A DNA stretch of 64,000 nucleotides from Asparagopsis taxiformis (taxonomy: Eukaryota > Rhodophyta > Florideophyceae > Bonnemaisoniales > Bonnemaisoniaceae): positions 23,994 through 87,993 of the forward strand of contig JALQPE010001693.1 of NCBI GenBank assembly GCA_030407315.1, read 5' to 3'. A model generated the notes under the pieces. It made no database searches, was not told where the DNA came from, and was given only the letters and a program-made list of their open reading frames with translations. Shown here in pieces: positions 18,339 to 54,995 of this stretch. Made by a program: the position numbers and the translations under genes. How positions within the stretch are numbered: position 1 is the stretch's first letter; each line of letters begins with the position of its first letter.

Positions 18339-18411
18339 TTTGTGAGTTTTGCAGTATGTGAGGAGATGTTTGTTTTGGAGAGCGCAGTGAAGCATATGAG
18401 GGCCGATAACC

Positions 18412-26382: not shown

Positions 26383-26760
26383 CACTACGGTGTTGGGAAT
26401 GAAAAAAGACAGTAAATTTACTGTCTGAGACAGTAAAAATTACTGTCTGGCCAAGACAGTGCGCGGAGACAGTAAAATTTACTGTCTGGAAATTTCAGAA
26501 TACTGCTGCAGCAGTAAACTGGCACGAAATCTGGACAGTACCAAAAACAGTAAAATTTACTATCCAGAACAGTAAATTTTACTGTCTGGAAGTGTTGCCG
26601 CCAGACAGTATGTGCAGACAGTACATTTTACTGTCTGAGGCAGTACATTGTATTGTATTACTGCACTGTCTGGGGAAATCTGTAGACAGTAGTGTAGATA
26701 GCAAATTGTATTGTCTGCGGGTAGTACCGTGCATTGGTTGACAGCACTGTCTGGTGGAGT
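26383..26760. repeat. Left CACTA terminus and subterminal repeats of element B
   Basis: The 13-bp terminal repeat is followed by many copies of CAGACAGTAAA and TTTACTGTCTG, often as complete palindromes such as GACAGTAAATTTACTGTC at 26411. The spacing and density match transposase or TnpA binding arrays in CACTA elements. Confidence 0.9.
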
Positions 26761-27288
26761 GGACTTAGAGGAAATATGGAGCATAGTGTTAGTGTGAAGG
26801 TAAATATTGGAATGGTGTGTGGAATACGACTATAGTAATTGTGATGGTGCTTTACAGATAGTTGGGTGCGGGGAAGCTAGATGCTGAATAGGACGTTGTA
26901 GAAAGAAAGATAGGGAAGATTGAACATATCTCGTTTGTCTCACCGTAAGGAGAGAATGTACAGAGTAGCTATATTATGTTGAGTTTAGCATTTCAAATTA
27001 TACCTATCTATCTTTGCATTGAAAGTGTCGAGTAGGAGACGTCAGTCTGGTAGCGAGGTGTGGTATTCACAGGACGTGGGTGGTAGCAAAGGAAAGAATA
27101 CGCACCATCCACCACTAAATTATGAAAAATAACCGTTACGGAGCACCGAGAAGCATTATTATTATGTAGAGTAGAACAGGATGGATGCATCCACTGGAAT
27201 GATATTTGCTACAACACTGCTGTACTAAGCGTGACACCCTTCCTTCAAAGCACTTCTCCTTTTAGCAAACTCCAATTGCAAGTTCAAC
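26761..27288. other. Spacer before the coiled-coil gene
   Basis: AT-rich, no gene. It must contain the promoter of the gene starting at 27289; no motif recognised. Confidence 0.35.
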
Positions 27289-28815
27289 ATGAATCCCGAA
27301 ACCTCCGTGAGCATCGCTGCATTTTCCGAAATAACGCGTGAGGGCTTTTCGAACATCACTGCAGAGCTGAAAGCCCTGAGTGATAAAATGGATGCCGTCG
27401 AGAAGAGCACCATTCAATTACGCGAGACTCTCGGAAATGTCGCCAAGACTGTCTCCATGCTAAACACCGATATGCAGGAGGTCAAGGGCATCGTCGATGG
27501 GCTTCTGAGCCAGGGACAAGGACATCCGAAGAAGATCGCCTCTGAGAAGGACAGGGAACGTCTCCGCATTGCGCAGGATGCGGAGAAATCGTTCACGTTC
27601 GAAATGGTGTGTGCTGTGCTGTGTGCTGTTGTTCCAACGTACACGAAGGCAATGGTGGATAAGAGGGATAGGCATTTCAACGGATGCGAGCTAATCAATA
27701 CGCTGATGTTCGCCAGGCAGAGCAATGAGCGAAAGGATGTGTTCAATAGGACGCTTGCCGGCCGGAACCACATTGAATTGCGCTGCCAAGTTGTGACCTC
27801 TTTAATCAAGAATACGTGTCAAAACAATTCTTTCAGACAGGGAGGAGACCGTTCCAGCTCCAATGGAACGTCGGAAGGTATCGAACGGTGGAGGGCGCGG
27901 GGGTATGTGACTACCGGGACCATTGAGGAGACAATTCGCGGAACGGACTCTGCTCGCATGGATGGAATGCATGGGACGTCCGAGGCAAGTGATGGGGCCG
28001 CTCGAAAGCAGAAGCGAAGAAAGGTTGGTGACAATGGGCCGTTGCACAGAAAGGAGGTAGGCATCACTGTGACGAAATCGGCACTCACGGCAGTGACCGG
28101 GTTTATGAACAAGTCCAGAGATCATGTGCGAAACCGGTTCATCCGAGATCTTGGATTCGTTCTATACAGTGGGTTTCAAGGTTCAGTCCGCATGGAGCAT
28201 CATTTGCACGACGGTGGGCTGGACATTGAGTCAGTTCCAAGTCTGTACTCGGCGCAGAGGAAAATGAATGCAGCGGAGCGCGCAGCAATGGATGACAAGA
28301 ATATGAAGATTCTTCGCGACTTCATTGCTGTGCGAAAAGAAATGGTATTCAAAGTCGAGTACGAAGTTCAAATAATTGGAGAACCGGACAAGAGGTTTGT
28401 GACTAGGAGGATCAATTTAGTAGAGGTTGCACTGAACTTTGCAGTCGCCTACACGCAATGTTCTGATAAGAACATGTTCCTGCGACGTTCAGAATACTCC
28501 TTGCAATTCATCTACATACTTGCATACGGGTTCCGAACGATTTTGAAATTTCAAAGTGGAGCAGAGGTGGGAGGAGCGCAAATCCGGGAAATCAATGAAG
28601 CAGTGAAACTGCTTCTTCCCGGGGAGCGGGTGAGTAGTCGTTTTATGAATGAGGAGGTTTTGACTATATCGCGTGATAGATATGAAGAACTGAATGTAGA
28701 CGATGGAGGGGACTCAGTGCTGGAGGAGAGCTTCAGGTCTATGGAAGAGGACGGAGGAGATGAAGAATATGTGAAGGTATTTGTCGATGATGAAATCGAG
28801 AATGAAGGGGAGTAG
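27289..28815 (+). CDS. Coiled-coil nuclear-type protein of unknown function
   Basis: 508 residues from the ATG at 27289, no interruption. The N-terminal ~80 residues have a heptad pattern (ITREGFSNITAELKALSDKM ... AKTVSMLNTDMQEVKGIVDG) typical of a coiled coil. A basic cluster (KQKRRK) near residue 243 could be a nuclear signal. The C-terminus is strongly acidic (DDGGDS ... FVDDEIENEGE). I recognise no catalytic motif or named family. It is the left-most gene of element B, reads inward from the terminus, and has no copy visible in element A. By position it could be an accessory transposition or DNA-binding factor comparable to TnpA, but this is inference only. Confidence 0.7.
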   Translation: MNPETSVSIAAFSEITREGFSNITAELKALSDKMDAVEKSTIQLRETLGNVAKTVSMLNTDMQEVKGIVDGLLSQGQGHPKKIASEKDRERLRIAQDAEKSFTFEMVCAVLCAVVPTYTKAMVDKRDRHFNGCELINTLMFARQSNERKDVFNRTLAGRNHIELRCQVVTSLIKNTCQNNSFRQGGDRSSSNGTSEGIERWRARGYVTTGTIEETIRGTDSARMDGMHGTSEASDGAARKQKRRKVGDNGPLHRKEVGITVTKSALTAVTGFMNKSRDHVRNRFIRDLGFVLYSGFQGSVRMEHHLHDGGLDIESVPSLYSAQRKMNAAERAAMDDKNMKILRDFIAVRKEMVFKVEYEVQIIGEPDKRFVTRRINLVEVALNFAVAYTQCSDKNMFLRRSEYSLQFIYILAYGFRTILKFQSGAEVGGAQIREINEAVKLLLPGERVSSRFMNEEVLTISRDRYEELNVDDGGDSVLEESFRSMEEDGGDEEYVKVFVDDEIENEGE

Positions 28816-29090
28816 TATCGGATGAAACCGGTTTCGGTATAGTAGACGAAGAATGAAGAAATAAAATTTCTGTTGAGTTGAATTTTGTAATAGATGGAAG
28901 GAGATAGATACGAGACATCAGGAAACCAGTCAGACGATAGTGTCAAGTCGAAGGAATAGCGCAGAGACAGGTAGTGGAATAGTCGAAGTAGGAAGGGGCG
29001 AGGGTATCCGTCTTTACTAGAAATTGATGGCCACAGGAGCTCTAGAATGAAATACCCAGGAACAGGATAACTACGGATAGATGTACTTTA

Positions 29091-30452
29091 TTATTTTTGC
29101 TCAGGACTGCAGTTGGCAGGTGGAGGAGAGGGAGGGTGGTTAGTGGCTGAATCCGCATTGAAGCCAAGACGAGAGATAGCCTCATAGCCAATGTCTTCAA
29201 GCTCCTGGCATGTAGTAGTACCACTGAAAATACAGCAAGGTAAGCGTAGATGTAGTGTACCAAACGTCTCTGCGGTTGATAGAGGCTGGAAAGTGCTGTA
29301 ACAAGCTCGGCGCTGAATACGTCTCCACAGTAACGAAAACGTTGCTCCATAGGTAACAGTAGCCTTATCACGTAGGTGGAAAGAGTCCACGATGCTAGAC
29401 TGTGATAGTTGGCTAAGACATAGGGGATGTAAAAATGTATTGTTGACATGGTCAAACTCGTAGGAGTCTCTGCAAAGAACTGTCATACGTTGGTCTGGGC
29501 TGGACAGGACGTAAGCAGATGAGCCGACGAGAAATGCGGAAGAAGGAGCACCATGAGAGCAATCAACGTCGACTAGATTTCCTAAAATTCGGACAATCGA
29601 TGAGCTGCCTCCATCGCGTTCCGCCCTGCTCTTCACCAATATTTTCTGGAACCCGTGTTGCGAGGTACCTATGGAGTCACATAGTGCCTGAAAGGTGGGG
29701 AAAATGATGGAAAGATCCGACTCATTTCCAGAGGGAAAGGTGATGTCCTCAAAGGACGGCTGGAAGAGAACGTCACGATTCTCTTTCGCCTTGCATTGAA
29801 TGGCAATAGTGCGGAATTGAGCAAGGGAGCAGTCAGCCTGTACTCTGATTTCTTCTTGCGATGTTTGTCGCATTCCCCTGGAGTGCTCGGATTTTGTCAT
29901 CCGGAGGGAGAGGGGCTTGTCCGTGTACACACCAAGCTTCTGAAACAGAATGCTACATACAGTCAGAGCAGAGGAGGTCATGGAGCTGTTGGAATCGAAT
30001 GGAGGGGGAAGAGGATGTTTGGCAGCTGACTCCAGCTTTTCCAATCTTGCCAGCATTTCTGCTATGGTCTTCTTCATTTGATCCGCAGTGCAATCTTGAA
30101 GGATGCCGCGGTGGCGGTGGCGAGTGTGGTCAATGCCGTAGTCCGGGTCTCTCTCTGCTGGGGATGCAGGTGAGTCCATACTGCGAAGCTCACCACTTCG
30201 CCACGGGAGAACCCTTCCGGAATCCTTGTCGACGAGCTCGTTACGATCTGAAATCTTGACTTGAGAAAGGGTAGAGTCGAAACCATATTCAGCTTTGTAT
30301 TCGAGCAATGCATGGAGGAATGGGTCTGTTTCAGTCTTGACCTGAGTAATTTCCTTGACGATTGCAGACCACCACACAATTTTTCGTTTCCTCCCAAACG
30401 GCCGAAGTTCCCATTGAACTTCTATAACGTCGTTTGGAGCGAGAGGAAGCAT
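29091..30452 (-). CDS. Protein with N-terminal SH3/Tudor-like barrel
   Basis: 453 residues, start ATG at 30452. Residues about 8-75 (DVIEVQWELRPFGRKRKIVW, WSAIVKEI, LLEYKAEYGF) have the spaced tryptophans and alternating hydrophobic pattern of a Tudor/Agenet/PWWP-type beta barrel, a fold that commonly reads methylated histones or binds nucleic acid. A short coiled coil follows (MKKTIAEMLARLEKLESAAK, near residues 124-143). The C-terminal two thirds has no recognised motif and ends proline-rich. It is divergently arranged with the ParB-MTase-SET gene, 513 bp apart, suggesting a shared promoter and linked function. The reader role is a weak structural inference. Confidence 0.65.
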   Translation of the reverse strand: MLPLAPNDVIEVQWELRPFGRKRKIVWWSAIVKEITQVKTETDPFLHALLEYKAEYGFDSTLSQVKISDRNELVDKDSGRVLPWRSGELRSMDSPASPAERDPDYGIDHTRHRHRGILQDCTADQMKKTIAEMLARLEKLESAAKHPLPPPFDSNSSMTSSALTVCSILFQKLGVYTDKPLSLRMTKSEHSRGMRQTSQEEIRVQADCSLAQFRTIAIQCKAKENRDVLFQPSFEDITFPSGNESDLSIIFPTFQALCDSIGTSQHGFQKILVKSRAERDGGSSSIVRILGNLVDVDCSHGAPSSAFLVGSSAYVLSSPDQRMTVLCRDSYEFDHVNNTFLHPLCLSQLSQSSIVDSFHLRDKATVTYGATFSLLWRRIQRRACYSTFQPLSTAETFGTLHLRLPCCIFSGTTTCQELEDIGYEAISRLGFNADSATNHPPSPPPANCSPEQK

Positions 30453-30965
30453 GTTGGGATAGCTATGGGATAGAATTGTTGTATTAGTGAAAGCCTAACC
30501 GTTACCTTCTGCTAAAGAGTAGTATATACTAGGAGGATTGGAAAGGTCGAGAAGAGATGTTTAGGTGGTGTAGAAATAGAATGGACAATTGACAAAATTG
30601 ACACGTCAGTGTGGATGATGTCTGCCATGAACTGATTGCAGCATAAAATTTGATGTGAATAATCGTTCTAGAAGTGAATGTCGGATGCATACGATTGGAC
30701 TACAAAGATACGTTTAGAGATGTTACGGGGCCCAATAAATTGCATGGAAAAATATTTTGAGTATTACTTTAGTATTACATTGATTATTGAGCTAACAGTC
30801 GATGTAGTTATCTTGTAAAGGTTCGGACAGGGGTGGAAAGGAAACAGCCACCGAAGTGCTACCACTCGCTGACACTTTGTTTTAAACAACCAACTTCTGC
30901 TTTGCGCCACCCTGGTCAAGCAGCAACCAACTATCCCTTTCTTAAAAACTCTACCTTTGTTCGCC
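30453..30965. promoter_or_regulatory. Divergent intergenic region between SH3-like and MTase-SET genes
   Basis: 513 bp between two start codons on opposite strands, so promoters for both genes must lie here. It is AT-rich in the middle and pyrimidine-rich (CAACTATCCCTTTC) just before the plus-strand start. No specific element identified. Confidence 0.45.
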
Positions 30966-33900
30966 ATGGAAGGAACGTTCCACAATCACGGTGAAAAGCA
31001 CGACGGATGGGTGTTCATCGACCCCAATCAAGTCAGCAAATTCGTATCGATTCGCGATGTTGATGCAAGTCATGTGGAAGCGCTCATGGAGAGCATTCGC
31101 AACAGCGGTTATGACACAGCTCATCCCGTGACTGGCAGGTTTCGAGAAGGCGTTCTGGAGATATTGGATGGAGCGCACCGCTGCATGGCAATTGTACGTG
31201 GAATGGAGAAGGGCGTCTTTCCTCCTGGCGTTACGATTCCTATGCGAGAAGAGTCTATCGTGGCGGACACCAACAGCAGTACTGCTGTTGTGCTGGACCG
31301 TGTGAGAGCGACGACATCCAACGACATTGCAGGCCTGCAAAGGCGCATGATGTTTGTTGAGTATCTGATGATCGCCGTTGATCTCAGAGACGAGTACTGG
31401 GTCCAAAACGGAAAGGACAAGTACGCTCACATTTCGTCTGTGAGGATGGCTGATGTGTTGGGCTGGATCAAATCCTGCGATCCAAGCGGCCAAATTGCTT
31501 CAAGCCTGAGTGGTAAACCGCAGTACAGCTCATGCATGTCTATCCTGGCTGTGCTTCGGCCGTATCACCGAGCAGAAGATTCGAGTGCGATTGATTTGCG
31601 TCTGTGGCAAATGTTTTGTCATGCATGGGGACTCAATGCAGAGATGGGTGATTCTCCGAGGATGGTTGAGTTTCCGAAACAGGTGGGGGTGACTAGTTCT
31701 CGTGCCGTCGAAATGTTTGGCAAGACACCCCGCGGAGAATTGTCCTCTCCACTGAACCGCGAACTGCTTTCGAGCAGGTACTTTCTGGACGGCGCTACAT
31801 CCGACATGCAAGATTCTTTGCAGGCTAGCCAGAAGCGGTTCAGGAGGCTGATGGTTATGATGTGCCAGTGTATCTTGGCTATTCGCAGTAAGGAGATGGG
31901 CAGTGTGCCATCTAGGCGGGCCAGAGCCACATCCGGGGCCATTGGTGGTGGTGGAATGGTTGGAATTGCAACATCCAGTGCGCAAGCCAACCAGCTTGGA
32001 TTTGTTGTCGACCGTGTGTTAGCTGCATGGGATACCGGGGCAAGAGTGTTGGGGTATGAGGATGTTGAATCGATGTGCTGGCCGTTCATGGTATTCGATC
32101 CCGCGAGCCTTTGCTTCAGGTCACTCCCGAATCGGTCTGATGGCTGTGCGGTCGAGGAGCATCGGAAAAACCTGACCATTGTCCCGAAAACTGTAGACAG
32201 TGAAAACGGGTTCTGTGCCGACCTTCCAGTGGCTGTGGATGCAAGGCTGCGATCATTGACAAGCGCCTTCCTGCTGTCGATACGCCAATGTGTCACTGAG
32301 GTGAATGTGTTCGCCGAGCGTGGTCAGCTGATGCAGAGACTTCGAGCCTTGCTTTTCGACACTCCTGACAAGTTCGGATTGAACTCGTTCATGCGAGCCA
32401 AGTTGAACACGTCTCATGCCCTGGATGGTCAGAGGAGGCTGAAGGCTTGGTTATTGCGAACCCGAGAGCAACGAAAGCTTCCTCTGACCATGGATGAGTT
32501 GCACAGTCTTGAGGATACGCCCGAGCCTGGCATCCTTGAAGGTGCACCTGCGCAGATGGAAATATCCGCAGCAGTGCCAAACAATGGCAGCGAGGATATA
32601 GAAGAGGATAGTCTGGAGCCACAGAGGAAGAAGGCTAGGCTGGAGCGCGGTGGTGGAGAGGACGATAATGCGGCGGTTGCTAGCGAAACAGCAACAAGAG
32701 AAGGTGCGGCCGAGGATGACGCTATGGAGGTTGACACTGTATCGCCTACAGAAGCACCGCTCGTTGACGTCGGAAAGGAAACCAAGCCAGAATATGTCAC
32801 CAAGCTGGAAGCTGTGATGGGGCGTTACATTCACACTGTGAATTGTGACGCCACTGATGTAGCCAAAGAGGTGGAGGACAAAATTAGTTTCCTGGAAGAT
32901 GGCGTGTTGGAGGACAGTGTTCAGCTTGTGCTCACTGATCCTCCATTCAACACGAGGCGGGAAGGCGGCAGAGAAAACTCGGAGTACGATATTCTGGAGC
33001 CGGAAGAGTTGGCGAGTGTTGCGTGTGAAATAGTTCGAGTTCTTCGGCCTGGCGGTCATGCTCTAATCTATTCCAGCGTGCGCCAACTCGTGGCATGGAT
33101 GGATGCAATCAGAAATGCCGAGCCTGGCAAGATGATTGTGGACAGTGTTCCAGTCGTGCTATCTCGCCGACCACACAGCTTTACGTCCAATCCATCGACG
33201 AAAACGTGCACACTGCATAATATGCACGATTTCGTTATCCATGCGTATAAGCGGGGGAAGGGTATGGCTGCATACGATATGGTGGATTACAGGTTGCACA
33301 ATCCGGACATATCGAGGCACCCTGGGTTCACCAACGCGATTGACAACGTTCCGAGGTTGTCGGCTGGTGAAGCTCAATACGATGGGCAGAACAACCGACT
33401 GCGCCATGAGCAGAAGGCGTTGACCACTCTTCGTGAGCTTCTGGAACGATTTTCGAAGCAGAACGATATCGTGATGGATTTCTTCTCGGGAACATACAGC
33501 ACAGCCATAGCGTGTATGACGTTGAGGGATGGTACGTATCGTCGGTTCATTGGGTGTGAGAAGGAAAAAAGGTGCCACGATGCATCGCAGGAGTGGATAC
33601 TGCATGCTTTCGTCAGTGAGGTGAAAGCCGGGCGATATGGGGGGATCTTGCAGCGTGAGGTGGAGAGTATTCTTGGGGACGAGTCGGTACCGGTCACAGG
33701 AAAAGCTCCAAGGCTTCGTCAGAAGCACATCTCAGATGCACCAGAAGGTTTACCTGCTGTGACAGCATTGCCGAACCATCTGCTTGTGTTCGTTGCGTCA
33801 ATGAAGAAGGACGGGTCTATGCTTCACAGATTGAGCGGGGTGCCTATGGACCAGTGGCCGGCCGAGGACATGCACTCGTTTTGGAGCATAGACCCGGACG

Positions 33901-34433
33901 CGATTCTGGCTGCTGATGCCGCATTCTACGGTGTCTATGTTTCGCAATCGGAGGTAAGAGGTGGTGGGTTTGGCGTATTCGCGGCGAAGAAACTGAAGAA
34001 GGGGACGGTCATTGGCTGGTACAACGGGACGATTTTCTATGCGAAGATTCGAGACTCGGAACCGCAGAGATCAGTGATGTACGGCCCGGAAGGATTTGGG
34101 TGCACAGGAGAGAGGTTCCAGGACTACAACATGGAATTGGAAACCACGTACATAGGGAGGGGTGCACCTGTTCGGAAGGTTTGGCTCGTTCCAGCGGTCT
34201 ATAATTGTACCAGCTACCTCAATGATTGTCGGGTCATTGACGGAACGGAGAAAGCGACCGAGGTGAGTCGAACACAGTCAGCCGAGTTTCGACAAGGCGA
34301 TGCCATAGACAAACCGGACTTTGCTTCAAATATCAAGAATCCCCATGCTGTCAAGGTCGTTCTGACCAGAGACGTTGAAGCTGATGAGGAGATATTTGCT
34401 GACTATGGTAGAAAATATTGGCCAGCTAACTGA
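30966..34433 (+). CDS. ParB-like / beta-class DNA methyltransferase / SET tridomain protein
   Basis: About 1,155 residues, uninterrupted; the ATG at 30966 (MEGTFHNHG) is preferred over an in-frame TTG. Domain 1 (about 15-75) is ParB/Srx-like with ILDGAHRCMAI. A long helical region follows, then an acidic/basic linker. Domain 2 is an amino-methyltransferase: DPPFNTRR near residue 658, GGHALIY, and the SAM motif DFFSGTYSTAIAC near 837. This permuted order is typical of beta-class N6A/N4C enzymes. Domain 3 (about 989-1155) is a SET domain: GGGFGVFAAKKLKKGTVIGW, TSYLNDCR in the substrate/SAM pocket, and AVKVVLTRDVEADEEIFADY followed by GRKYW. The protein could methylate both DNA and a protein lysine. 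A homologue lies in element A. I do not know this combination as a described family. Confidence 0.9.
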   Translation: MEGTFHNHGEKHDGWVFIDPNQVSKFVSIRDVDASHVEALMESIRNSGYDTAHPVTGRFREGVLEILDGAHRCMAIVRGMEKGVFPPGVTIPMREESIVADTNSSTAVVLDRVRATTSNDIAGLQRRMMFVEYLMIAVDLRDEYWVQNGKDKYAHISSVRMADVLGWIKSCDPSGQIASSLSGKPQYSSCMSILAVLRPYHRAEDSSAIDLRLWQMFCHAWGLNAEMGDSPRMVEFPKQVGVTSSRAVEMFGKTPRGELSSPLNRELLSSRYFLDGATSDMQDSLQASQKRFRRLMVMMCQCILAIRSKEMGSVPSRRARATSGAIGGGGMVGIATSSAQANQLGFVVDRVLAAWDTGARVLGYEDVESMCWPFMVFDPASLCFRSLPNRSDGCAVEEHRKNLTIVPKTVDSENGFCADLPVAVDARLRSLTSAFLLSIRQCVTEVNVFAERGQLMQRLRALLFDTPDKFGLNSFMRAKLNTSHALDGQRRLKAWLLRTREQRKLPLTMDELHSLEDTPEPGILEGAPAQMEISAAVPNNGSEDIEEDSLEPQRKKARLERGGGEDDNAAVASETATREGAAEDDAMEVDTVSPTEAPLVDVGKETKPEYVTKLEAVMGRYIHTVNCDATDVAKEVEDKISFLEDGVLEDSVQLVLTDPPFNTRREGGRENSEYDILEPEELASVACEIVRVLRPGGHALIYSSVRQLVAWMDAIRNAEPGKMIVDSVPVVLSRRPHSFTSNPSTKTCTLHNMHDFVIHAYKRGKGMAAYDMVDYRLHNPDISRHPGFTNAIDNVPRLSAGEAQYDGQNNRLRHEQKALTTLRELLERFSKQNDIVMDFFSGTYSTAIACMTLRDGTYRRFIGCEKEKRCHDASQEWILHAFVSEVKAGRYGGILQREVESILGDESVPVTGKAPRLRQKHISDAPEGLPAVTALPNHLLVFVASMKKDGSMLHRLSGVPMDQWPAEDMHSFWSIDPDAILAADAAFYGVYVSQSEVRGGGFGVFAAKKLKKGTVIGWYNGTIFYAKIRDSEPQRSVMYGPEGFGCTGERFQDYNMELETTYIGRGAPVRKVWLVPAVYNCTSYLNDCRVIDGTEKATEVSRTQSAEFRQGDAIDKPDFASNIKNPHAVKVVLTRDVEADEEIFADYGRKYWPAN

Positions 34434-34709
34434 GCTACTTTGATAGATTTGAGTAAACACGCATTGGCAGAGACAATAGACTGTGCATCATCTTGCAAGA
34501 GCGCTAGATATTATAGACTAGACTACAACAATCGTGACATGACTGCAGGAAGGCATCTGCGGCCTGGAGTGCAAACTATCCACTTTTCTACTGCTTTACC
34601 TATGGATACGAAAAGGAGAGAAACTAGAAAGATGTGAGTGAGAAATTGTGTAGCAACGCAGCATGTAGAACACCAGTAAGAGAGCGATGTAGGAGAAGCA
34701 GTCACCCCA
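34434..34709. other. 3' flank of the MTase-SET gene
   Basis: Short AT-rich interval before the first foldback; presumably holds the polyadenylation signal. Nothing specific seen. Confidence 0.3.
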
Positions 34710-35168
34710 TTACAGTGCGGGCCGTTTACCGGGGATGCTGACAGCAAAGTCATCGTTACGATGACTTTGCTGTAAGAAAACAAATCATTACAGCAGCCAC
34801 GATTTCTTTACCGGGTAAAAAAATTGTGGCCGCTGTAATGAAACGTTTTCTTACAGCAAAGTCATCGTTACGATGACTTTGCTGTAAGAAAGCAAATCAT
34901 TACAGCGGCCACAATTTTTTACCCGGTAAAAATTCTTGCTGATTTTTTACCCGGTAAAAAATTCTTTGGCCACTGCAAGGAAACGGTTCCTTACAGCAAA
35001 GTCATCGTTACGATGACTTTGCTGTAAGAAAGCTTATCATTACAGCGGCCACAATTTTTTACCCGGTAAAGAAATCGTGGCTGCTGTAATGTTTTCTTTT
35101 CTTACAGCAAAGTCATCGTAACGATGACTTTGCTGTAAGGAACCCTGGTAAACGGCTTCGGCTGTAAG
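34710..35168. repeat. Foldback repeat F1 (four palindromes)
   Basis: Outer ends are TTACAG ... CTGTAA. Inside are four copies of a 33-37 bp palindrome with core AAAGTCATCGTTACGATGAC. The first three have GTTAC at the centre and the last GTAAC, so the block as a whole is itself inverted. Between them lies a second dyad TTTTTACCCGGTAAAAA with GTGGCCGCTGTAATG. It separates the MTase-SET gene from the ParB-2OG gene. Confidence 0.9.
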
Positions 35169-35642: not shown

Positions 35643-38600
35643 CTATCTATTGCTCCTATCGTACTTGTAATATTCGACGGTGTGGATGTGGTCCGTGAGG
35701 ACGTCCTTCTCCGTCTTCAAGTAGATGTGGCCGCGCGTGGGCAGGCCATAGACTAACTTCTCGCCTGCAGGAAGATCTCCTCGGCTGAAGCCGACCCCGT
35801 AATGGTAAAGGTCACCGCGACCAACCAATACGGAATAGGGTGGCACCCAAAAGGTGAGAGGGGGAACCTTCCACATATCGGCGTCCGGATTGACCAGGCA
35901 TACATGACTATAAGGGGCAACTACTATAAAGAACCCATCGGCTCCGCTCGACATCATGAAATATGATGGAGACTTGGTAGGACTTCCAACACTATTCGTC
36001 GATACCTTGAAGTCCGTGTGCCCATCCTGGTCCGCAGCCCCATCTGCTGTAAGAAGCAGCCGCAATCCTGTCTTCGGGAAGAAGACAGGATCCTCACCCT
36101 CCATTCCCAGCTTCAAGAACTCCGCACAAACACCAAGAGCAAGCTCTGCCACCAACTTGTTCTTATACATCTCCAAATTCCCCTCCTCCAACTTGTCGCA
36201 CAACTCACGCCGCGGCAGAGAGAGGCGCCCACGACCACCATCCATGCGGTCCTTCGCATCACCCACGTTGTGGATGAACTGCCACGGCGAAGGATCGAAG
36301 CCGGGCTTTGCGAAAGCTGGCGGCTCGTCCTGTGGCTCCCTGTCGTCATCGTTAGAATCAGACTGCTGGGAGGGTTTTTCAACCTCCTCAACCAGCGGGA
36401 ACTGCCTAGCGAAGTGACCGAACAACTCATGCGTCGCATTACCAGCCGTGGACGATGCCAACAGGCCTTCCATAACAATAACCCCCAAGTTTTCCAACAA
36501 TGCCTTCTTCACCGCAAAGTACCTGTCCACCACCGTATCCTCAGCACCCGGCGATGCAGCTGCCTGGAATGCTGCCGCCCTCATTTCCGCCCGAACCGTC
36601 TCCACCGTCGTACTTTCCATATAGTACTTCATCCGGCTGCCAGACGCAATTGCGCTGGGGAGAACGGCGGCCACATTCTCATCGACGATACTGTCGGGAA
36701 TGGGATTCTCCTGGGCGTCGTCGAACTGGAGAACCGGCTCCCGAGAGCGACCTCGGGAAGCCGACTTGGATTTCTTTGACGACGACTTTGATGAAGTCTC
36801 ACCGAGCCTTCTCTTTTTGGTAGAAGGCTCGGGCGTCGCAGAAGCGCTTCCAAGTTACGCTTCCCGAGGATGGAGTTTTCACCCGCATCCTCGGGGGCGC
36901 TCTCCAGCTCGACGACCTCCACAGCACCACCCGCCGTTCCACCACGACCGGAACGACTCGCTTGCAGGCGGGTACTCCTTCTGGGCATCACTTTCCTCCC
37001 AGAAGTTTCCACTCCGGGCGGTGCAGAATCACTGACTTCAATGACATCTTCGTCAGGATCTGCACCGCCCTTCGCACTGCTGCCCTCGACCACATTCTCG
37101 GGAGTAGGGCCCTCCGTCGAAATCCTCGCAACCGTCTTCTGTCCAACCCCACCGGATGGTGAAGGGACGAAACTGTCATCGCTGGAGCTTCCCGAACTGC
37201 TAGCAGATGCAGAACGGGAAGCTTCGACAGCGGGGGCCGGAGCAGCAGGGTGCTGCTCGGCAGCCGGAGTCGCAGGCTCAGGCTGCGAAGCCGGTGAGAC
37301 CTGCTCCTGCGCGGCTTGGACAGGACGGTTGGGGGTACCAGTCCCGGCGTGGGAAACTGGACCAGAGCGTTCGCTGCCATCCTGGGGACCACGCGCAGTC
37401 GGCTTGACCGGGGTCACCGCAGGGGAGGATGCCGACACGGCAGGGGTAGAGACAGGAACAGGGGCAACCTCGGAATCGCTGGAAGATTCCAGTTGAGGTG
37501 GTGGGGGCAAAGGAATGGAGGATGAAGGGATGGGCAAGGAATTGGAAGAGGAAGGGATGGGGGCATCATCACCACATGTGGCTGGGAGCGCAGCATGTGG
37601 GATGTCTGGGTACATCGCGTGAAAGCGTTTCCGCATAATCATGTCGCGGTACCCAGTGACGCGCAGGAGCATTTTCCTGGCGTCCTTCCCGAAGACAGAC
37701 TTCTTACGGGGAAAAATGTTCTCCGACTTGTAACCATCGGGGGGGCCTTCCTTGGGACGGAAGTCTGCCCAGCACCCCTTCTTGGGGACCATCTGAGCAA
37801 GAACTTCGACAACGCGCGAGCGAATGTCGAAGCTCTTGCTCGGGTCACCCACGCTGGGAATTGAGCCATCCAGCATCCTCATCACATCCGACACGTTCCA
37901 GTACTCGGCCACCTCCTTCACGTACCCGAAGATTTCCAACAAACCAGCAATCCATTCCTGCCCAATGGTACCAACCGAGTACGGTTTCAGCCCGGCCGAC
38001 CGACGGCTACAAGTGTAGCGCGCCGTCATCTCCAGGATGAAACACTTCTGTACATCCGGAGCACTCCTGAACGACCCATTGAACAACAAGTTCACCGTAC
38101 ACCCAGCCAGATCCTCTGTGGAAGAGAACTGCACGAACTCCGGCCTGTTCGGGATGCTCGACCAGTATTTGAAAGCAGGGCTTTCAATGGTCTTGAACCC
38201 TCGCGCGATCGAGACGTAGCGCATGAGCTGTCTCGGACGAATCCAGCTCAGCGCTTTCCGTTCTTTAATGTATTGAACGGTCGGCTCGATCTTCTTCTTT
38301 CCCAGGCGGTGGATATTGATGAACTCCATCACAGAGCACACATTGTCAGCAACTGTTACCTCGCTGACATTGTGGGTGTGGAAGTTCATCAGCCGTGAAA
38401 GCGGGAGTACTTCTTCGGAGCAGAAGACATCCCGGCCAAGCCGAGTCGGTGGGAGGAGAAAGTCGACTGGAATAGTTCCAAAGCGACGGTAGATGTCAGA
38501 CTTGACAAACTCCTCCCACTCTGGACTGTCCTTCGCAGGAGCAGGTCCAGCCGACTCGAGAATGGCCTTCAACGCGGTCACTCGGTGAGATCCATCGACG

Positions 38601-39287
38601 TATTGCAGTCGTACTTTGGCATTGGAATCAATCACCTCGCAGACGGACACGCGTGAAGCAATCACGGAAAATCCCTGAGTGAGAAACGTTTTCTTCAACT
38701 CATCAACGCGATGCGGCCTGACCACCCTGGACACGACTGCCGGAGGAGAAACATCCAGGGGGAAATGAAGACTGGAATGTTTCGGCAGCTCTCCGGACTT
38801 ATGTCGTAGTCCACATCCACCGGGATGGGCACTGTGCCAGGGTAGGCCAGCCTGGTGCTGCGGAGAGGCTTGTTCGGTACGATGTCACGAGCGTTGTGAT
38901 CATCGACCTTCTCCGCATCCTCTGCCAAGTCGCTGCCGGACGCGATGATCATGTCCGGAGCAGGCGAGCTAGGCAGAGGAGCACCAGATCCCTCGACGGC
39001 TGGCGCCGCTTCGGCAGATTGAGCCGGAAGCGGAGTTGCGGGAACGCCAGCGTCGATTGTCGGGACAACCGCGGGATCGGAAGCGGAAGGGGGGGAGGGG
39101 ACGGGCTTAGGTGCTGGGCTGAGCTGGGTCAGCGCTGCAGCAGCTTCGCAAACGTCCATGGGGACAGGGGGGGCAGAGAAGGAGAAGGAGAGGGAGAAGG
39201 AGAGGGAGAAGGAGTGGGAGAATCGTTGTCACGGCGGCTGGCAGAGCGCACCTGGCGGTCGAAAGCGTTGGGGGATTGTTGAGCCAT
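35643..39287 (-). pseudogene. ParB-like/2OG-dioxygenase fusion B1, frameshifted
   Basis: This paralogue of the intact gene at 40814-44008 now lies in separate frames. The N-terminus MAQQSPNAFDRQ starts at 39287, changes frame in a CT/C-rich tract near 39165, and again near 38760 just before the ParB domain (SRVVRPHRVDEL, YVDGSHRVTAL). The linker runs to about 36840, where one more frameshift separates it from the dioxygenase half (GSRMKYYM, TGLRLLLTADG, iron ligands GHTDF and DLYHYGVGF, candidate arginine in TRGHIYLK). In the downstream frame the linker reads PEPSTKKRRLGE, a plausible nuclear signal, as in the intact copy. The catalytic residues are kept. No clear splice sites fit, so I call frameshifts; assembly errors in low-complexity tracts are the main alternative. 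Confidence 0.75.
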
Positions 39288-39492
39288 TGCTTTGATGAGT
39301 GATTGACAAACGAAGAGTGAAAGATTGAGAAAGAGAGAAGAAGATCTGAACGACAAGCTGTTTTGCTGCGTAAGCTGAGTAAGATAGGCGAAACTCAGAG
39401 AACTGACATATTCCTATTAGTATACACCCTGGTAATGATATTCAGCGGTTGACCAATCCGAACCTTCCACATCACTTTTCGTTGTACGACAA

Positions 39493-39814
39493 TTACAGCT
39501 CAGGCAGTTTACCAAGGATCCTTACAGCAAAGCCATCGTTACGATGACTTTGCTGTAAGGAAACGTTTCATTACAGAGGCCAGGAATTTTTTTACCGGGT
39601 AAAGAAATCATGGCTACTGTAATGTTTTGTTTCCTGACAGCAAAGTCATCGTTACGATGACTTTGCTGTAAGAAAACGTTTTCATTACAGCGGCCAGGAA
39701 TTTTTTTACCGGGTAAAGAAATCATGGCCACTGTAATGAAACCTTTCCTTACAGCAAAGTCATCGTAACGATGACTTTGCTGTAAGCATCCCTGGTAAAC
39801 TGCTCCATCTGTAA
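39493..39814. repeat. Foldback repeat F2 (three palindromes)
   Basis: Same family as F1: TTACAG ends, three copies of the AAAGTCATCGTTACGATGAC palindrome (the first with GCCATCG), and two TTTTTTACCGGGTAAAGAAA dyads. It lies directly upstream of ParB-2OG gene B1. The 205 bp between the gene start and F2 hold no other feature. Confidence 0.9.
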
Positions 39815-40357
39815 GCCGTTGGTCTCAACCCTCGCTCTCATTTCTGTTGTCCTCCTTCATCATCTCCACCTACCTTCCCCCTACACACCACCTCTCTAAT
39901 GTCACTCTGCCCACCCTTTGGTGCATGAAATATTTTCTTACCACTGCCATAGTCTACACATACTGCTGCCTTCATACTTCTGCATGCCTACCCTTCAATC
40001 TTTCTTCCATCTTTCTCTACCGTGCTAGGCTTAGACCATGCTCTGTGCACATCTGACTTACTTAATATCATTGTATAGTTAGAAACTAGAATAATAATTA
40101 CATCACTAGAGTACACTGCAAATGTTAGTAACTATGGTTGGTGTGGTACACAACACCCTACCTCCTTCATGAGTAAACTTTGCGCACAGAACCGTTCAAT
40201 ACCAGGTAGTGCAGCCAGCGCAAACCAGGCTTGCACGACGCAGAGTGCTCCCCAGAGCCGTCAACAGCCGTCCAAACCATCGTTGTACGATGTTCCCGGC
40301 TCCACACTTCCCTTCTCACCCTTCCCAGGGTGGGAGACGGACGAAACTCCCAACCGC
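39815..40357. other. Spacer between foldbacks F2 and F3
   Basis: 543 bp with no supportable gene, CT-rich at its left. It lies between the start of gene B1 and the end of gene B2. Confidence 0.4.
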
Positions 40358-40591
40358 TTACAGCCGAAGCCGTTTACCCGGGATGCTTACAGCAAAGTCA
40401 TCGTTACGATGACTTTGCTGTAAGGAAAGGTTTGATTACAGTGGTGAGAAAATTTTACCGGGTAAAAAATCAGCAAGAATTTTTTACCCGGTAAAAAATT
40501 GTGGCCGCTGTAATGATTTGATTTCTTACAGCAAAGTCATCGTAACGATGACTTTGCTGTCAGCACCCCAGCGAAACTGCATCATCTGTAA
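40358..40591. repeat. Foldback repeat F3 (two palindromes)
   Basis: Shortest complete member: TTACAGCCGAAGCCGTTTAC at the left, one GTTAC-type and one GTAAC-type AAAGTCATCG palindrome, with the TTTTTACCCGGTAAAAA dyad between. It ends CATCATCTGTAA. It sits 220 bp downstream of the ParB-2OG gene B2. Confidence 0.9.
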
Positions 40592-40813
40592 GCCTTCCTC
40601 ACCTCAATGTTGCAACCAAAGACGACTGCGATATTACCTTGTTCTATTCTAGTAGTGCCCACCATAGTTTCCTCCCCTTCTCATATTAAATTGAGTATTG
40701 TATATCTCCTGACCCGTCTACATACGCAAACGTCATGTACTAGCCTAACTTTCATCGTTTACTTGAAGGCGGCCTTGATGCCTGCCATAGAATGCTATTA
40801 AGAACTAATTTCA

Positions 40814-44008: not shown

Positions 44009-44744
44009 TTGTGGTACCTCCGAGTGCGCTTCCCGTCTCTCAGCTTCCTCTCATATACTGTCCGGACAAGACATCCCCTACCTACCTTCAGTCCTGATGA
44101 ACCTTACGCTGCACCCGCTCAGCACCTCTGACTCTACCTGATCCTGATACCTCCACAAAGCGTTTAGCCCTTTCCATCAATCTACACCTAATAGTATGTA
44201 CCTCTAGCGCATATAATGCAATCGAACCCGTTTACCTCACCACGTCAATTATCATTCATATTCCAACAACCTATTTCATCCACACTCTCCACCTCGCTTC
44301 TTCTTCCGTACCATTGATTCCTATCAATCGATTCTACGTGAGTTTTATACATTTACTACGATCCACCTCTCCTACAAGTCTGAAAAATTCATTTCTACAC
44401 TAACTTTTGCTACTCACAAATAAACGGTTCCCGTGCAGGCCACTGCTTGAATTTCTTCCTATTGGCGTACTCGGCTGCAAAGGATTCATAGACTATTTAA
44501 ACGGTGATCATATAAATGGTTTTCAATGTGCTCCAATGGACAATACACCAAAGAACATCAATATGAATTCATTTCAACTACCTATTCACTACTGCGATTC
44601 AGTTTTCTTGCATACCAAATCTCATTGCGTTCCTACCCTAGTCGATTCAAAATGCTTCCTCCTCGTCAGTTGATCAATATTCCTTACAACGAGCAGGTCC
44701 TCTGGACATCCTAAAGTTGGTTACTTAACCTTAACTATCGATGA
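44009..44744. other. Upstream region of ParB-2OG gene B2
   Basis: 736 bp, AT-rich, no gene. It must include the minus-strand promoter of gene B2. Short reading frames here have no domain. Confidence 0.4.
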
Positions 44745-45008
44745 ATTTGCTGTAATGAAACGTTTTCTTACAGCAGCCACGATTTCTTTACCGGGTAAAA
44801 AATTGTGGCCGCTGTAATGAAACGTTTTCTTACAGCAAAGTCATCGTTACGATGACTTTGCTGTAAGAAAAGAAAACATTACAGCGGCCACAATTTTTTA
44901 CCCGGTAAAAATTCTTGCTGATTTTTACCCGGTAAAAAATTCTTGGCCACTGTAATGGAAACGTTTTCTTACAGCAAAGTCATCGTAACGATGACTTTGC
45001 TGTAAGCA
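44745..45008. repeat. Foldback repeat F4 (two palindromes, left end truncated)
   Basis: Contains one GTTAC-type and one GTAAC-type AAAGTCATCG palindrome plus ACCCGGTAAAAA dyads. The right end is TTGCTGTAAGCATACC but the left lacks the outer TTACAG...GTTTACC sequence. It separates gene B2 from the transposase gene. Confidence 0.88.
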
Positions 45009-45126
45009 TACCTCCCTCCATCCTCTCAGATCCTCTCCCCACTACTTCGCACCAATCCACCAACGCCCTAGAGTGTACAATTCATATGTGATGCATCTGG
45101 TTATTCATTTTATTCTTCCCTAAAAA

Positions 45127-48100: not shown

Positions 48101-48930
48101 GATTTTTCTCCTTCCGAGCTTCGATTGTTCGCATCACTGCGGAATGCTTTAAAGATTGGTCGAGTCTGGACATCTTTCAGAGCCCATGTGCTTGGGAGTA
48201 CAATACGAACTTTCGCCATTCCTCCACAATTGTCTCTGTCATCTGTTGTTCCACGGGTTCCTACTGCACCTCGATGCTGTGCAGCTCTTGCTCCGCTCTT
48301 TCGAAGGTCTATCGGAAACTCGATGTCACAGCTCTTTGCATAGCAGTGTTTCCTCAAGAATGGTAGTATCTTCTGTCGCATCACAGAGTCCGACGGGACG
48401 TGCTCACTTGGATCTCTGCGGAAATTCATTCCGAACAGGGTACCTTCATAGTGGGCTCTTGTCATTCTTTGAGTTCCACTCAGCTGAAGAGCCCCATACA
48501 TTGCAGGCCATTGTAGTAATGCCTTGAAATCACCACATGCTTCATCCCCAGCATTTCGGTCTATCGGGCCTCCAGTTGAAATGGAATCAGAACCTCGTCC
48601 GGTTGCTTCTTCCGATTCCATTAGCGTGCTCGATGCTACGTAGATGTCACTTCCAGCTTCATCGTTGTTGCTGTACACATCAATACAACCTTCTATTGTG
48701 TCACCCATAGGGATTGGGGACTCCAATAGGTCATCTGTGGTACACTCACGTCGTAGCTCATTACCTCTCGGGATTTCTTTGTTCATGCAGGCTGCATCAC
48801 TGCTGCGGATTTCTCCCTGCAGTTTCCCAGGAAGCTGTTTACTGGGACTGGCCACATTGAGTGAATCGAATCTCGCCTTTGTCCTACGACTTGTGGTTTT
48901 CTTTCGAATAGGAGTCCGTCTCGGAGCCAT
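45127..48930 (-). CDS. Tnp2/CACTA-like DDE transposase of element B
   Basis: 1,267 residues, uninterrupted, from MAPRRTPIRKKTTSRRTKAR (basic N-terminus). The central block around residues 535-655 contains RFLLYTDDF, KGSFGGCYMLPLNLPP, VIGLPPPGVSTNCVLRYI, VFLDPVGSIGDYPAVSHTLD and SPCHICSF. This resembles the Tnp2 core, where acidic residues coordinate metal for cut-and-paste transposition. A later block near 935-950 (QELIFERMHQPLKKG) resembles the region following Tnp2 in CACTA proteins and is a candidate site for the last acidic residue. The assignment is supported independently by the CACTACGG termini and the 2-bp duplication. The C-terminus extends about 250 residues beyond the element A copy. 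The gene starts 2.4 kb from the right terminus and reads inward. Confidence 0.88.
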   Translation of the reverse strand: MAPRRTPIRKKTTSRRTKARFDSLNVASPSKQLPGKLQGEIRSSDAACMNKEIPRGNELRRECTTDDLLESPIPMGDTIEGCIDVYSNNDEAGSDIYVASSTLMESEEATGRGSDSISTGGPIDRNAGDEACGDFKALLQWPAMYGALQLSGTQRMTRAHYEGTLFGMNFRRDPSEHVPSDSVMRQKILPFLRKHCYAKSCDIEFPIDLRKSGARAAQHRGAVGTRGTTDDRDNCGGMAKVRIVLPSTWALKDVQTRPIFKAFRSDANNRSSEGEKSTAECSIEDSFIAKCRRGVLSDPFVRTAVVPIDSDGKKGLKHIYVPDGTAIRIRCHPGARQVAVIERAKGFRKNDRDGGKPKRRRVAVTSLWELHARTIVTYEARHDGEHDVHVEKYLQPRMSHLLEWERQHALRAISQCVIGAGAKGKGTRAGDVITVLLPIGMEEGDIVPHVVLVNRYLKEQVGEASTMLLCFSPGASFAEARNPPDRLGSPNYEEIRVSGVFSDGFGDHRSQWHPASPREDAPCWGKLEDGRNYFVYRFLLYTDDFEPFTSRKGSFGGCYMLPLNLPPRKRGSYQAVRVIGLPPPGVSTNCVLRYIVQDIVRGSTEGFPTKNAEGEDVVVFLDPVGSIGDYPAVSHTLDVLGHTSNSPCHICSFRKYDLSSTGGTKNAYTSVVNGQTSTHARSKYRNASTRKDATETQLRTLGLAAEEGEDLPFHVLSTSLEAVQEEVPKTENGVSVVPAIFDPYRSAVIAPDHLLSGLAQDVLNACISAASPRIREVAELQILGALKKFRMGRQNRLFGTNNLLSMNMSDIFSVLLIAPMAFENAARMMDGKGEGHREKFDGAVKLVVMFQKLVSCISFMPVWWKDGPHEVETADGEGGRNEYILGRTVDYVETLNEYCRKVKGAGAHLDKPNVHRLVEFCVHTLPAYGSVKHVQELIFERMHQPLKKGVRMSNHQSEQLSALELVLADDWQTRVAIVLREIGMEPQHWSSSECSQMVNVLSQELGREIDVEDEVVKNCFQEPVLQLLSQRRGKILSADGEIVTWRGHGGISIDEVKEYMNGKCDMAEGAVGVFKRFFTERYGSGTSGCGKYAEWVRRVSRSTTTEWGRKTVQRSGSLESGAIIHAVCPEQRTCEDGATSQAILYPASRLTSEIMRGRINYEPRFFIVLAFFILRNESARDEQGTAYGVCLGLQKTDEGVFKVEERRRTVIVEMSEGVTEVFGMHYCNGSVCEYDENMREVRHGPGLLEGGEIYALCRRDGFPPRAA

Positions 48931-49889
48931 CTTGATGTTTTTGTTCTTTTCTTCTTCGCTCAGTTTTGTTGCATAGAATACAACTCTAAACTTCTACGAC
49001 ATGACTACTATCTCAATACAGTATTACTTTTAACCGTTACGAAACCTTTCCAGGCTTTCATTCGATCCAATGAACTGGTTCACCACAATGCTTTGCCCTA
49101 TGCTCATTTCTTTATGCACATTGATTGCTATTTCATCCGGACTCAACATCGTTTTGCTATCTTGTATCGCATTCCCTAACCACAAACCCAGCCAAGATGT
49201 ATCCATTTCCGGAAAACGGCCGTTTATTTCGCAGTGATGCTCTAGGCACTAATACTGAATCTGATTTTCTCATACACGTACTTCCTACTCGTATACTCTA
49301 CCACATTTTCGGCCCTATTTACAAGTTGAAAGCACAATCTCTCGTTGAATCGTACTCGGTGTGATATCTTAAATTAGCATAAATTTATATATTGCAATGC
49401 AGATTCACTGCTCGCTTGCAACATGAAAATTATAAAATTTCTCCCACACTGCTGTTTCCTAGCCGCCCACATCCACGTGGCCCGCTTTGACTGCCTGCCA
49501 AGTGTGCTCAGAGCATGCAATGACGTCATCGATATATACCGTCCAAATCATCACTGGAAGCGCGGACTCCTCGTCCAGGAAAGTGCGCCATTTTTCCTAC
49601 TCCTCGCCTCACCCTTTTCTGTAGGCCCCATATGCTAGTGTTTTTCCTATATTTCTGTAGTGATGACGTCATTATAGACTAGAGAAGGCGGTAGAAGATA
49701 CAATAATTTTGCGCCTGTTCTGCCAGGTCATGTGCTTCAAAGCGTAATTCGCACCCTAGGTATCGTTTTTCTGGGCCTCCCATCGCACCGCTCCGTTTCA
49801 AATTCATCCCTCTATTGTTCTCCTACACGTCATTTCCGCCCGCAGAGTGCTACTTAAACAACAGATTCTGGAAATCCCTGTTTCCATCT
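48931..49889. other. Upstream region of transposase B
   Basis: 959 bp without a supportable gene. The promoter of the transposase is expected here. No defined motif seen. Confidence 0.4.
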
Positions 49890-50028
49890 TCATATCCGTC
49901 GGAAACAAAGCAACAACCCTGGCCGTGGAAGCCGTATAGATCATCTAAACTGCTTCCAAAGCGTAAGTTTTAGATCATCAATACGGCTTCCAAGGCCAAA
50001 GTTGTTGCTTTGTCTCCGACGGATATGA
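49890..50028. repeat. 139-bp imperfect hairpin with ~60-bp arms
   Basis: The left arm begins TCATATCCGTCGG and the right arm ends CCGACGGATATGA. The arms pair over about 60 bp with scattered mismatches (for example GGAAAC/GGAGAC and CCCTGGCCGTGG/CTTTGGCCTTGG) around a loop CTTCCAAAGCG. Arm length and mismatch pattern would suit a microRNA-like precursor; a small MITE is the alternative. Confidence 0.8.
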
Positions 50029-50730
50029 ACCATGATGGTACGTTTCCACAACTCACGCCACTAACCCAGTTTTCTATTTGTTTTCTCTTTCTCAGGTTTC
50101 CAGTCGGTGAGTGTTCCACTTCTACTTTCATTTATCTTTCTCTCTTACCACTTCTCCACTACTTTTCTTTTCTGCCTGTGAGTACATATCTCAATTTGGG
50201 ATGCAATGGTATTTGTTAAGGTACGTTAGTCTCCTAATCACCATCAATTTCCCTCTCCAATTCAACGTCACTAACTTGTTTCCTTTCTCTACATCATTTT
50301 TTCTTCTTCTCTTCATTTCCTAGCTTATTCATGCAGCTCAATCAGTTGATAGATTTCTAGACTTTTCTAGTAGTTTTAGTTTTACTCGTCGGAATAGTGT
50401 TAGTTGTAGTAGCATTTTTAACATAGGGATTGTTTATTCTCAATGTAGCCTGCGCAAATAAACAAATCCAGAGTGAAGCTTCCCATATCGCACCCTCTTA
50501 GATTGCTACCTATCCTACCGCGTATACCTCTCGCTAGCTCATAGTCACTACGAAATAAAAATTCCTAGCCGTACTATTCTGTCCATTCCCATATGAATAC
50601 CGTCCATGCCCCATCCTCATAGCGCTAGAACTGCCTTCCTCTACCCCAGAAAGATGCCCACGACAGCGTGACGCTCCATCTCATCCACCACTCCCAGACA
50701 CCGAATTTTACTATATCAGGACACTACTTT
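50029..50730. other. AT/CT-rich spacer near right end of element B
   Basis: No supportable gene; T/C-rich runs produce short plus-strand frames without domains. Confidence 0.4.
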
Positions 50731-51010
50731 TACTGTCTCCAGGTGCTGCCCAGGGCAGCACGAAATACTGTCTCCAGGTGCTGCCCAGGGCAGCACAAAG
50801 TACTGTCTACAGGTGCTGCCCAGGGCAGCACAAAGTACTGTCTACAGGTGCTGCCCAGGGCAGCACGAAATATTGTCTACAGGTGCTGCCCAGGACAGTG
50901 AAAATCACTGTCTCCAGGTACTGCCCAGGACAGTGAAAATCACTGTCTCCAGGTACTGCCCAGGACAGTGAAAATCACTGTCTCCAGGTACTGCCCAGGA
51001 CAGTGCACCG
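50731..51010. repeat. 35-bp tandem repeat, about eight copies
   Basis: The unit is close to TACTGTCTCCAGGTGCTGCC followed by CAGGGCAGCACGAAA. It changes midway to a CAGGACAGTGAAAATCACTG version. Each unit contains the TACTGTCT/GACAGT subterminal motif. There are no unique spacers, so it is not a CRISPR array. It is present only at the right end of element B. Confidence 0.88.
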
Positions 51011-51363
51011 TGTTGGTTCCATCTATTGTCCCAGGCAGCGTATTTCACTATCCGGCCATGTTGCCTTGGCCAATACAAAACACTATCCGCCAACACTGCC
51101 CAGTACAGTAAATTACATCATATCCAACTATTGAATAAATCATTAATTTTTACTGTCTCCATTCACTGCCTCAGACAGTACTGTGAGACAGTGTTTTTTA
51201 CTGTCTGCAGACAGTGTTCCGTACTGTCTGCCAGACAGTGCAAATCACTGTCTCCAAGTGTGGCATTAATTTTCATTTGCCGCATAGTGATTTTTACTGT
51301 CTCAGACAGTAAAAATCACCGTCTCGCAGTACTGTCTGAGGCCCCCTTTTCAACACCGTAGTG
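51011..51363. repeat. Right CACTA terminus and subterminal repeats of element B
   Basis: Dense CAGACAGT/ACTGTCTG motifs, including TTTTTACTGTCTCAGACAGT, end in the terminal sequence CAACACCGTAGTG. The inner TTTACTGTCTGAGACAGTAA arrangement also occurs at the left end. Confidence 0.9.
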
Positions 51364-54951: not shown

Positions 54952-54995
54952 CGGGTGGGCCGACTCCTCTCCATCCAACGGATACGCGACGCGCG

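Follow-up and report, generated by a model that had tools for sequence, protein, structure and literature searches.

The window analysed here is a 64,000-nt stretch of the red alga Asparagopsis taxiformis (contig JALQPE010001693.1 of assembly GCA_030407315.1, labelled C1573 in the analysis). It holds a complete CACTA-type element of 24,981 bp that carries a Tnp2-like transposase and a protein joining ParB-like, N6/N4 DNA-methyltransferase (MTase) and SET regions, hereafter MTase-SET. It is nearly certain that the whole gene set, which also includes two ParB-2OG genes, a coiled-coil gene and an SH3-like gene, is carried by one single element. The assembly searched for relatives comprises 141.5 Mb in 3156 contigs, to which the C numbers used below refer.

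Boundaries and setting of the element

An earlier note on this DNA had described 13-bp inverted termini, a GG target duplication and subterminal repeat arrays, and all of these were recovered. The terminal inverted repeat (TIR) CACTACGGTGTTG is exact at both ends and occurs in 1866 exact copies in the assembly (922+944), against a single copy of the reversed control. The other 14 TIR matches in the window each carry 3 mismatches, which is the chance level (16 found, 14.0 expected). The insertion, read as TTTGTGGG / element / GGGTGTGAG, lies inside an older MTase gene (23621-26382, + strand, resuming after 51363), and GG is the target duplication because removal of one GG lets the frame of this gene run on (RRFVGCEKL). 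Repeats of ACTGTC/GACAGT are dense at both ends, with 15 in the first 500 bp of the element, 22 in the last 981 bp and 11 between.

The usual target duplication of CACTA elements is 3 bp long. In this family, a 2-bp duplication was present at 6 of 10 assessable end pairs, the window included (chance 1/16; P of at least 6/10 = 1.0e-5), namely GG in the window, GC on C74, AG on C19, TC and GA on C104, and AT on C64. This count leaves out the pairs on C10, C59, C78 and C101, where the inner TIR adjoins one fixed sequence, and that on C1772, where the right TIR lacks its last 2 bp. CACTA inverted termini, 2-bp duplications and subterminal repeat arrays are the features shared with EnSpm/CACTA (CMC) elements. 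Fungal Plavaka families are described with termini TGT..ACA or CATCA..TGATG (PMC12730594), and such termini are absent from the element, whose ends are CACTACGG..CCGTAGTG.

Table 1. Features of the CACTA-type element, in window coordinates
Feature	Position	Strand	Basis or remark
GG target duplication	left 26381..26382, right 51364-51365	.	flanks and restored frame of older gene
Left TIR, CACTACGGTGTTG	26383..26395	+	exact 13-bp match and genome counts
Left subterminal array, ACTGTC/GACAGT inverted repeats	26407..26760	.	repeat count
Coiled-coil gene, 508 aa, function unknown	27289..28815	+	open reading frame (ORF)
SH3/Tudor-like gene, about 453 aa	29091..30452	-	label of the earlier note, without profile support
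ParB-like/MTase/SET gene, 1155 aa	30966..34433	+	Pfam, PDB profile search, ParB motif
MTase domain	about 32919-33590	+	Pfam; SET domain about 33966-34409
Palindrome cluster TTACAGCAAAGTCATCGTWACGATGACTTTGCTGTAA, between two convergent genes	34710..35167	.	repeat search
First ParB-2OG gene, apparently decayed	35643..38884	-	ParB frame 36629-38884 and 2OG frame 35643-36854, overlapping
Palindrome cluster	39493..39814	.	repeat search
Palindrome cluster	40356..40593	.	repeat search
Second ParB-2OG gene, open frame, 1040 aa	40814..43936	-	ORF and motifs
Palindrome cluster	44736..45011	.	repeat search
Tnp2-like transposase, 1267 aa	45127..48930	-	alignment and profile comparison
Right subterminal repeat array	50716..51340	.	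repeat count
Right TIR	51351..51363	-	exact 13-bp match

Remnants of older genes lie to the left of the element: transposase-like at 560-2983 (-; 30% identity), 2OG at 21739-22614 (+; 32%) and the interrupted MTase gene at 23621-26382 (+; about 31%). The same three kinds of gene are thus neighbours in a far older lineage as well, their membership in one element being conjectural. Two retrotransposons, typed by eye from their ORFs, differ strongly in composition inside this one locus: a Ty3-type element at 52925-59207 (CpG observed/expected 1.68, GC 0.61) and a Ty1-type element at 15003-18410 (0.94 and 0.46). An Rfam scan of the window gave no match at the gathering threshold.

Copies across the genome

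Near-full-length copies on C390, C2567 and C1772 are colinear with the window element, cargo included, and their large segments are mostly 97-99.8% identical to it, while the palindrome clusters vary. When 32-mer gene markers were counted over the whole assembly with up to 3 mismatches allowed, near-equal numbers were obtained for the transposase (486), MTase-SET (427), the second 2OG gene (434) and the coiled-coil gene (471), with 0 for each control. Among the places listed on contigs up to C507, to which the spacings and linkage ratios given here and below refer, all four markers occur together in at least 16 elements, and the coiled-coil and MTase markers mostly lie 4891-4910 bp apart. Linkage was short of perfect: counting only markers with room, an MTase marker stood at the expected distance from 14 of 28 2OG and 35 of 45 coiled-coil markers; conversely, 21 of 27 MTase markers had the 2OG marker and 26 of 37 the coiled-coil marker, and 28 of 34 transposase markers had the 2OG marker. 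In fetched loci (window and C390 included), the exact ParB2 32-mer adjoined 10 of 10 transposase copies; the SH3 32-mer stood beside 10 of 10 fetched MTase-SET copies, and the OG1 32-mer beside 9 of 10.

The set thus travels with the transposase, and the single-transposon view of the earlier note stands; copies that share the termini were found to carry the cargo, alongside many deletion derivatives. The cargo genes do not belong to separate smaller elements, which the colinear copies rule out, as does the lack of any TIR match with fewer than 3 mismatches inside the window element. Right ends (1065 in the assembly) outnumber transposase markers, therefore many derivatives lack genes. One deletion subfamily has a 2OG-transposase spacing of 727 bp (8 pairs), with the coiled-coil and MTase markers near 3598 bp apart in 6 of 7 complete sets, and in a smaller derivative (C4:8141-14645) the right end survives together with a decayed remnant of the first 2OG gene. 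This is one family of complete copies plus many incomplete offspring; we read the element as recently amplified and apparently autonomous. If all marker copies were full length, the family would make up 7.5-8.6% of the assembly, a rough figure, given the many incomplete copies and the diverged ones left uncounted.

A recurrent composite was also observed, for instance at C4:1-16145, in which an 8.1-kb mostly non-coding element lies beside a 6.5-kb deletion derivative; its junction sequence, TATAAGGGCTGGAG, is present on C4, C10, C59, C78 and C101. Movement of this 14.6-kb composite as one unit is unsupported, since neither of the two units tested (C10, C101) has a shared target duplication.

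Clusters of a 37-bp palindrome follow the 3' ends of three genes, namely MTase-SET, the second 2OG gene and the transposase gene. Seven exact palindromes were found in the window element and none elsewhere in the window (39 kb); the three other near-full-length copies hold 5, 6 and 5, the 8.1-kb C4 element 6 and its neighbouring element 4. Over 23 sites picked by a 15-bp core, the palindrome arms are 99% conserved and the adjacent 11 bp 63%, the latter figure being lowered by mixed orientation of the flanks. Possible roles include ParB-binding (parS-like) sites, transcript ends or terminators, and hairpin-driven gene conversion.

Bacterial contamination was ruled out by the phycobilisome genes, the 141-Mb genome and the presence of the element family at many sites. 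Of the 13 phycobilisome-family matches in the assembly, 11 fall on a single plastid-like contig, including one that matches allophycocyanin chains over its length.

Encoded proteins and selection on their genes

The MTase-SET protein combines an MTase domain (PF01555, N6_N4_Mtase, 2.4e-16) and a SET domain (PF00856, 4.3e-6) in one ORF, both above Pfam cut-offs. In a PDB profile search the MTase part matched DpnA, CcrM and MboIIA, and the SET part matched EZH2 and SETD8. All 18 aligned sequences retain the DPP of DPP[FY] and the F.GT motif unchanged; DPP[FY] and the relatedness to DpnA, CcrM and MboIIA point to N6-adenine rather than N4-cytosine as the predicted target. Precomputed Pfam annotation places MTase and SET in one protein for 10 of 19 homologue matches, the element's own protein included, a number that rose to 13 of 19 once six of the matches were rescanned. 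The others are 30-51% identical, one being named Chondrus crispus.

The MTase and SET parts named in the earlier note are borne out; homology of the ParB part is weak. Six family proteins and both ParB-2OG proteins share the D, G, H, R and A of the motif DG.HR..A without exception; the ParB-like region had no Pfam match, its match to a PHROG ParB-like partition protein reached only E 0.0013, and its best PHROG match (E 1.1e-6) is to a family of unknown function. Among the matches listed (25 of 38 families for PADLOC), NCBIfam and PADLOC gave DNA-MTase matches, plus one weak NCBIfam match to an effector model that covers 26 residues in the SET region (E 0.00033). Viral contigs yielded 5 remote MTase matches and no transposase relative.

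The transposase has 11 relatives at 22-44% identity, and D544, D630, C649, C652, E937 and E941 are invariant in the 12 aligned sequences, from which we infer its catalytic residues. No direct Pfam match was obtained at E up to 1. Profile comparison inside the genome nevertheless aligned it with one PF02992-matching protein (hhalign E 1.5e-6, probability 90%) and weakly with another (E 0.0018, probability 15%), and its D, D and CxxC blocks align with an in-genome Transposase_21 protein. Canonical Transposase_21 proteins give 36 matches in this genome and form a separate EnSpm-type lineage.

The 2OG call is based on the HxD...H...R motif only, with H232, D234, H304 and R323 common to three aligned proteins. 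Pfam, searched at E up to 10, gave no family for the 2OG domains, TET/JBP included, and a PDB sequence search with the transposase and 2OG proteins gave no match. At the sensitivity used, a homologue search with the second ParB-2OG protein returned 1 match, itself or near-identical (99%). Two ParB-2OG genes had been claimed, and the second is indeed a single open frame, but the first is split over two overlapping frames and has no complete single frame in any of the four copies read; that on C2567 is nearest to intact, with a 998-aa frame ending inside the 2OG part. An intron or assembly error at the indels may account for the broken frame instead of decay. Indels were found in the second 2OG frame of C1772 and C2567 but in none of the window, C390, C74 and C44. 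Pfam scans gave no significant profile support for the SH3-like or the coiled-coil label.

Selection was assessed by counting unique nonsynonymous (N) and synonymous (S) variants against the window copy; the p values are rough, as the copies share ancestry, and C390, C1772 and C2567 were picked as top scorers in protein searches, a choice that favours low N counts for MTase-SET and the transposase. MTase-SET looks to be under constraint by this measure, with 6N:14S over 5 copies (p 3.6e-5, expected nonsynonymous fraction 0.746) and 8N:20S differences in C74 and C44, the two copies not picked by protein score. The coiled-coil gene looks constrained more weakly (10N:13S over 3 copies, p 0.0013). 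Counts for the transposase were 4N:5S over 3 copies (p 0.055) and 5N:9S over 11 (p 0.0027), 8 of the 11 having been chosen by protein score alone; those for the SH3 gene were 7N:5S over 3 copies (p 0.18) and 9N:11S over 10 (p 0.005). The second 2OG gene has no clear purifying selection over its length (11N:4S over 5 copies, p 0.55). Its ParB part beside 7 transposase loci has 0N:2S over 810 codons, which speaks against gene decay.

Self-marking and competing explanations

We put at about even the chance that, overall, this is an autonomous EnSpm/CACTA-type transposon whose ParB-MTase-SET protein marks its own copies; for self-marking by that protein as such, the chance falls a little below even. 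Under this explanation, the transposase would cut and paste at the subterminal arrays, and the ParB-like domain would bring the protein to element sites, either these arrays or the 37-bp palindrome clusters. The MTase would write N6-methyladenine (6mA) on the element and the SET domain would methylate a histone lysine on the same copy. The mark could then influence, in either direction, how the element is expressed or when it transposes, and the 2OG proteins would be optional in the present expansion.

Several observations weigh against this explanation. No 2-bp duplication was found at 4 of the 10 assessed end pairs (C44, the second C64 element, C390 and C2567). An MTase marker lay at the expected distance for only 5 of the 15 plus-strand transposase markers with room, and a transposase marker for 13 of 20 MTase markers; since this linkage is partial, many family copies are incomplete. 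The MTase-SET gene on C74, one of only two copies unselected by score, has a 1-bp deletion. The SET motif, usually NHSC, reads NDCR in the element's protein, so that histone activity is only predicted. In addition, the ParB homology is weak, as described above, and the palindromes may equally well be transcript ends.

Among the alternatives, MTase-SET might instead silence the element, its repressive DNA and histone marks capping copy number and sparing the host. Self-silencing has been offered as an option for retrotransposon DNA methyltransferases (PMC5890265), H3K27me3 lies on repeats of a unicellular red alga (PMC8566409), and a bacterial N4-MTase captured by bdelloids acts with SETDB1 in marking transposons (PMC8885841). 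However, marker counts of 427-486 show no tight cap, and we consider this explanation unlikely. We regard as equally unlikely a replication-timed transposition in which adenine methylation of the element ends would gate the transposase. By analogy, Dam hemimethylation gates IS10/Tn10 in bacteria; the MTase is of the DpnA/CcrM/MboIIA class and short inverted repeats crowd the ends, but the element has no known methylation motif and this model leaves the SET fusion unexplained.

The cargo genes could also be passengers without a role in transposition, spread by sitting between active ends. The variant counts of the full-length second 2OG gene, the broken frames of the first, the excess of right ends over transposase markers and the C4 derivative, whose gene content is down to a decayed fragment of one gene, all fit such a history. 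It is nonetheless rather improbable, as MTase-SET and, more weakly, the coiled-coil gene look constrained, the ParB part of the second 2OG gene holds 0N:2S at its 7 loci, and MTase-SET is conserved in relatives. Slightly more doubtful is the proposal, prompted by the lack of a detected C5-cytosine DNA methyltransferase, that the element constitutes the alga's only DNA-methylation system, with the ParB-MTase-SET protein binding the 37-bp palindromes in parS-like fashion and writing 6mA and histone methylation on its own copies.

The earlier note had inferred that the cargo writes and erases the element's own epigenetic marks. Writing by MTase-SET is plausible and fits the constraint on its gene, but the erase half is unsupported: the copies read hold one 2OG gene in broken form, clear purifying selection is lacking on the second, and neither has a dioxygenase profile match. 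The premise that the element counters silencing by 5-methylcytosine (5mC) fared no better. A six-frame search of the assembly found no match to PF00145 (C5-cytosine DNA methyltransferase, C5-DNMT), with 10 of 14 control genomes positive, a negative limited by possible assembly gaps and by exons hidden by introns; nor was there an excess of CpG transitions among three copies (46/178 versus 24.4% expected, p 0.36), so 5mC is an unlikely target here. CpG decay as a sign of 5mC silencing was likewise not seen among these copies. Cytosine methylation is reported in Gracilariopsis (PMC8566409; PMC9861306) and a DNMT3-like gene in Cyanidioschyzon (PMC9861306), and red algae therefore differ in this respect. 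Control of 5mC by writing and erasing, the usual form of that model, is thus very improbable on these results and on the 2OG findings above, even though TET/JBP dioxygenases occur on several fungal DNA transposons, EnSpm and Plavaka included (PMC12730594), and other red seaweeds are reported to methylate cytosine.

The statement in the earlier note that no described family has such a combination was too strong, since PMC12477816 records earlier reports, for red algal transposons, of both ParB-MTase proteins and giant EnSpm elements bearing accessory genes. The giant Bostrychia elements (Petroll et al. 2025, cited in PMC12477816) are likewise EnSpm-type, from a red alga and endowed with several accessory genes, a likeness drawn from their description in that paper rather than by sequence. 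The Ectocarpus element Sola1-1_Ec32 is a 21.5-kb DNA transposon in which the transposase and a 1104-aa protein with ParB and N4/N6-MTase parts are encoded on opposite strands, and for which self-modification has been proposed; it differs in belonging to the Sola superfamily and to a brown alga, and the excerpted account mentions no SET domain or 2OG genes (PMC12477816). Like it, the window element has a ParB-like domain, weak by profile, and an N4/N6 MTase in a giant DNA transposon. The TET/JBP fungal transposons share a 2OG-type DNA-modifying gene (PMC12730594), whereas the 2OG domains here have no Tet_JBP match and the writer is MTase-SET. Some retrotransposons carry a DNA methyltransferase under purifying selection, in their case a C5-cytosine enzyme (PMC5890265). 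A further parallel is bdelloid N4CMT with SETDB1 (PMC8885841), where an amino-MTase of bacterial type is linked to a SET histone MTase and the hosts lack C5-MTases, but N4CMT is a host gene and the two are separate proteins, unlike the fused, transposon-borne protein of the red alga.

What may be new relative to the reported giant elements is limited to the MTase-SET fusion, the ParB-2OG genes and the 37-bp palindrome clusters. Petroll et al. reportedly speak of giant Plavaka elements. In the titles and abstracts found, none describes a transposon protein joining MTase and SET, and Petroll et al. 2025 may describe the set.

If MTase-SET does mark its own element, one polypeptide of a mobile element would couple a bacterial-type DNA mark to a histone mark, and if the element were the only DNA-methylation system of this alga, epigenetic identity would be encoded by a transposon rather than by the host. 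The family, with marker counts of 427-486, offers ample power to test whether 6mA tracks the element, the palindromes or neither, and the lack of a detected C5-DNMT would make the alga a clean background for this question. The finding bears on the expansion of giant transposons in red algal genomes, and makes the element a good test case for transposons that write their own epigenetic marks.

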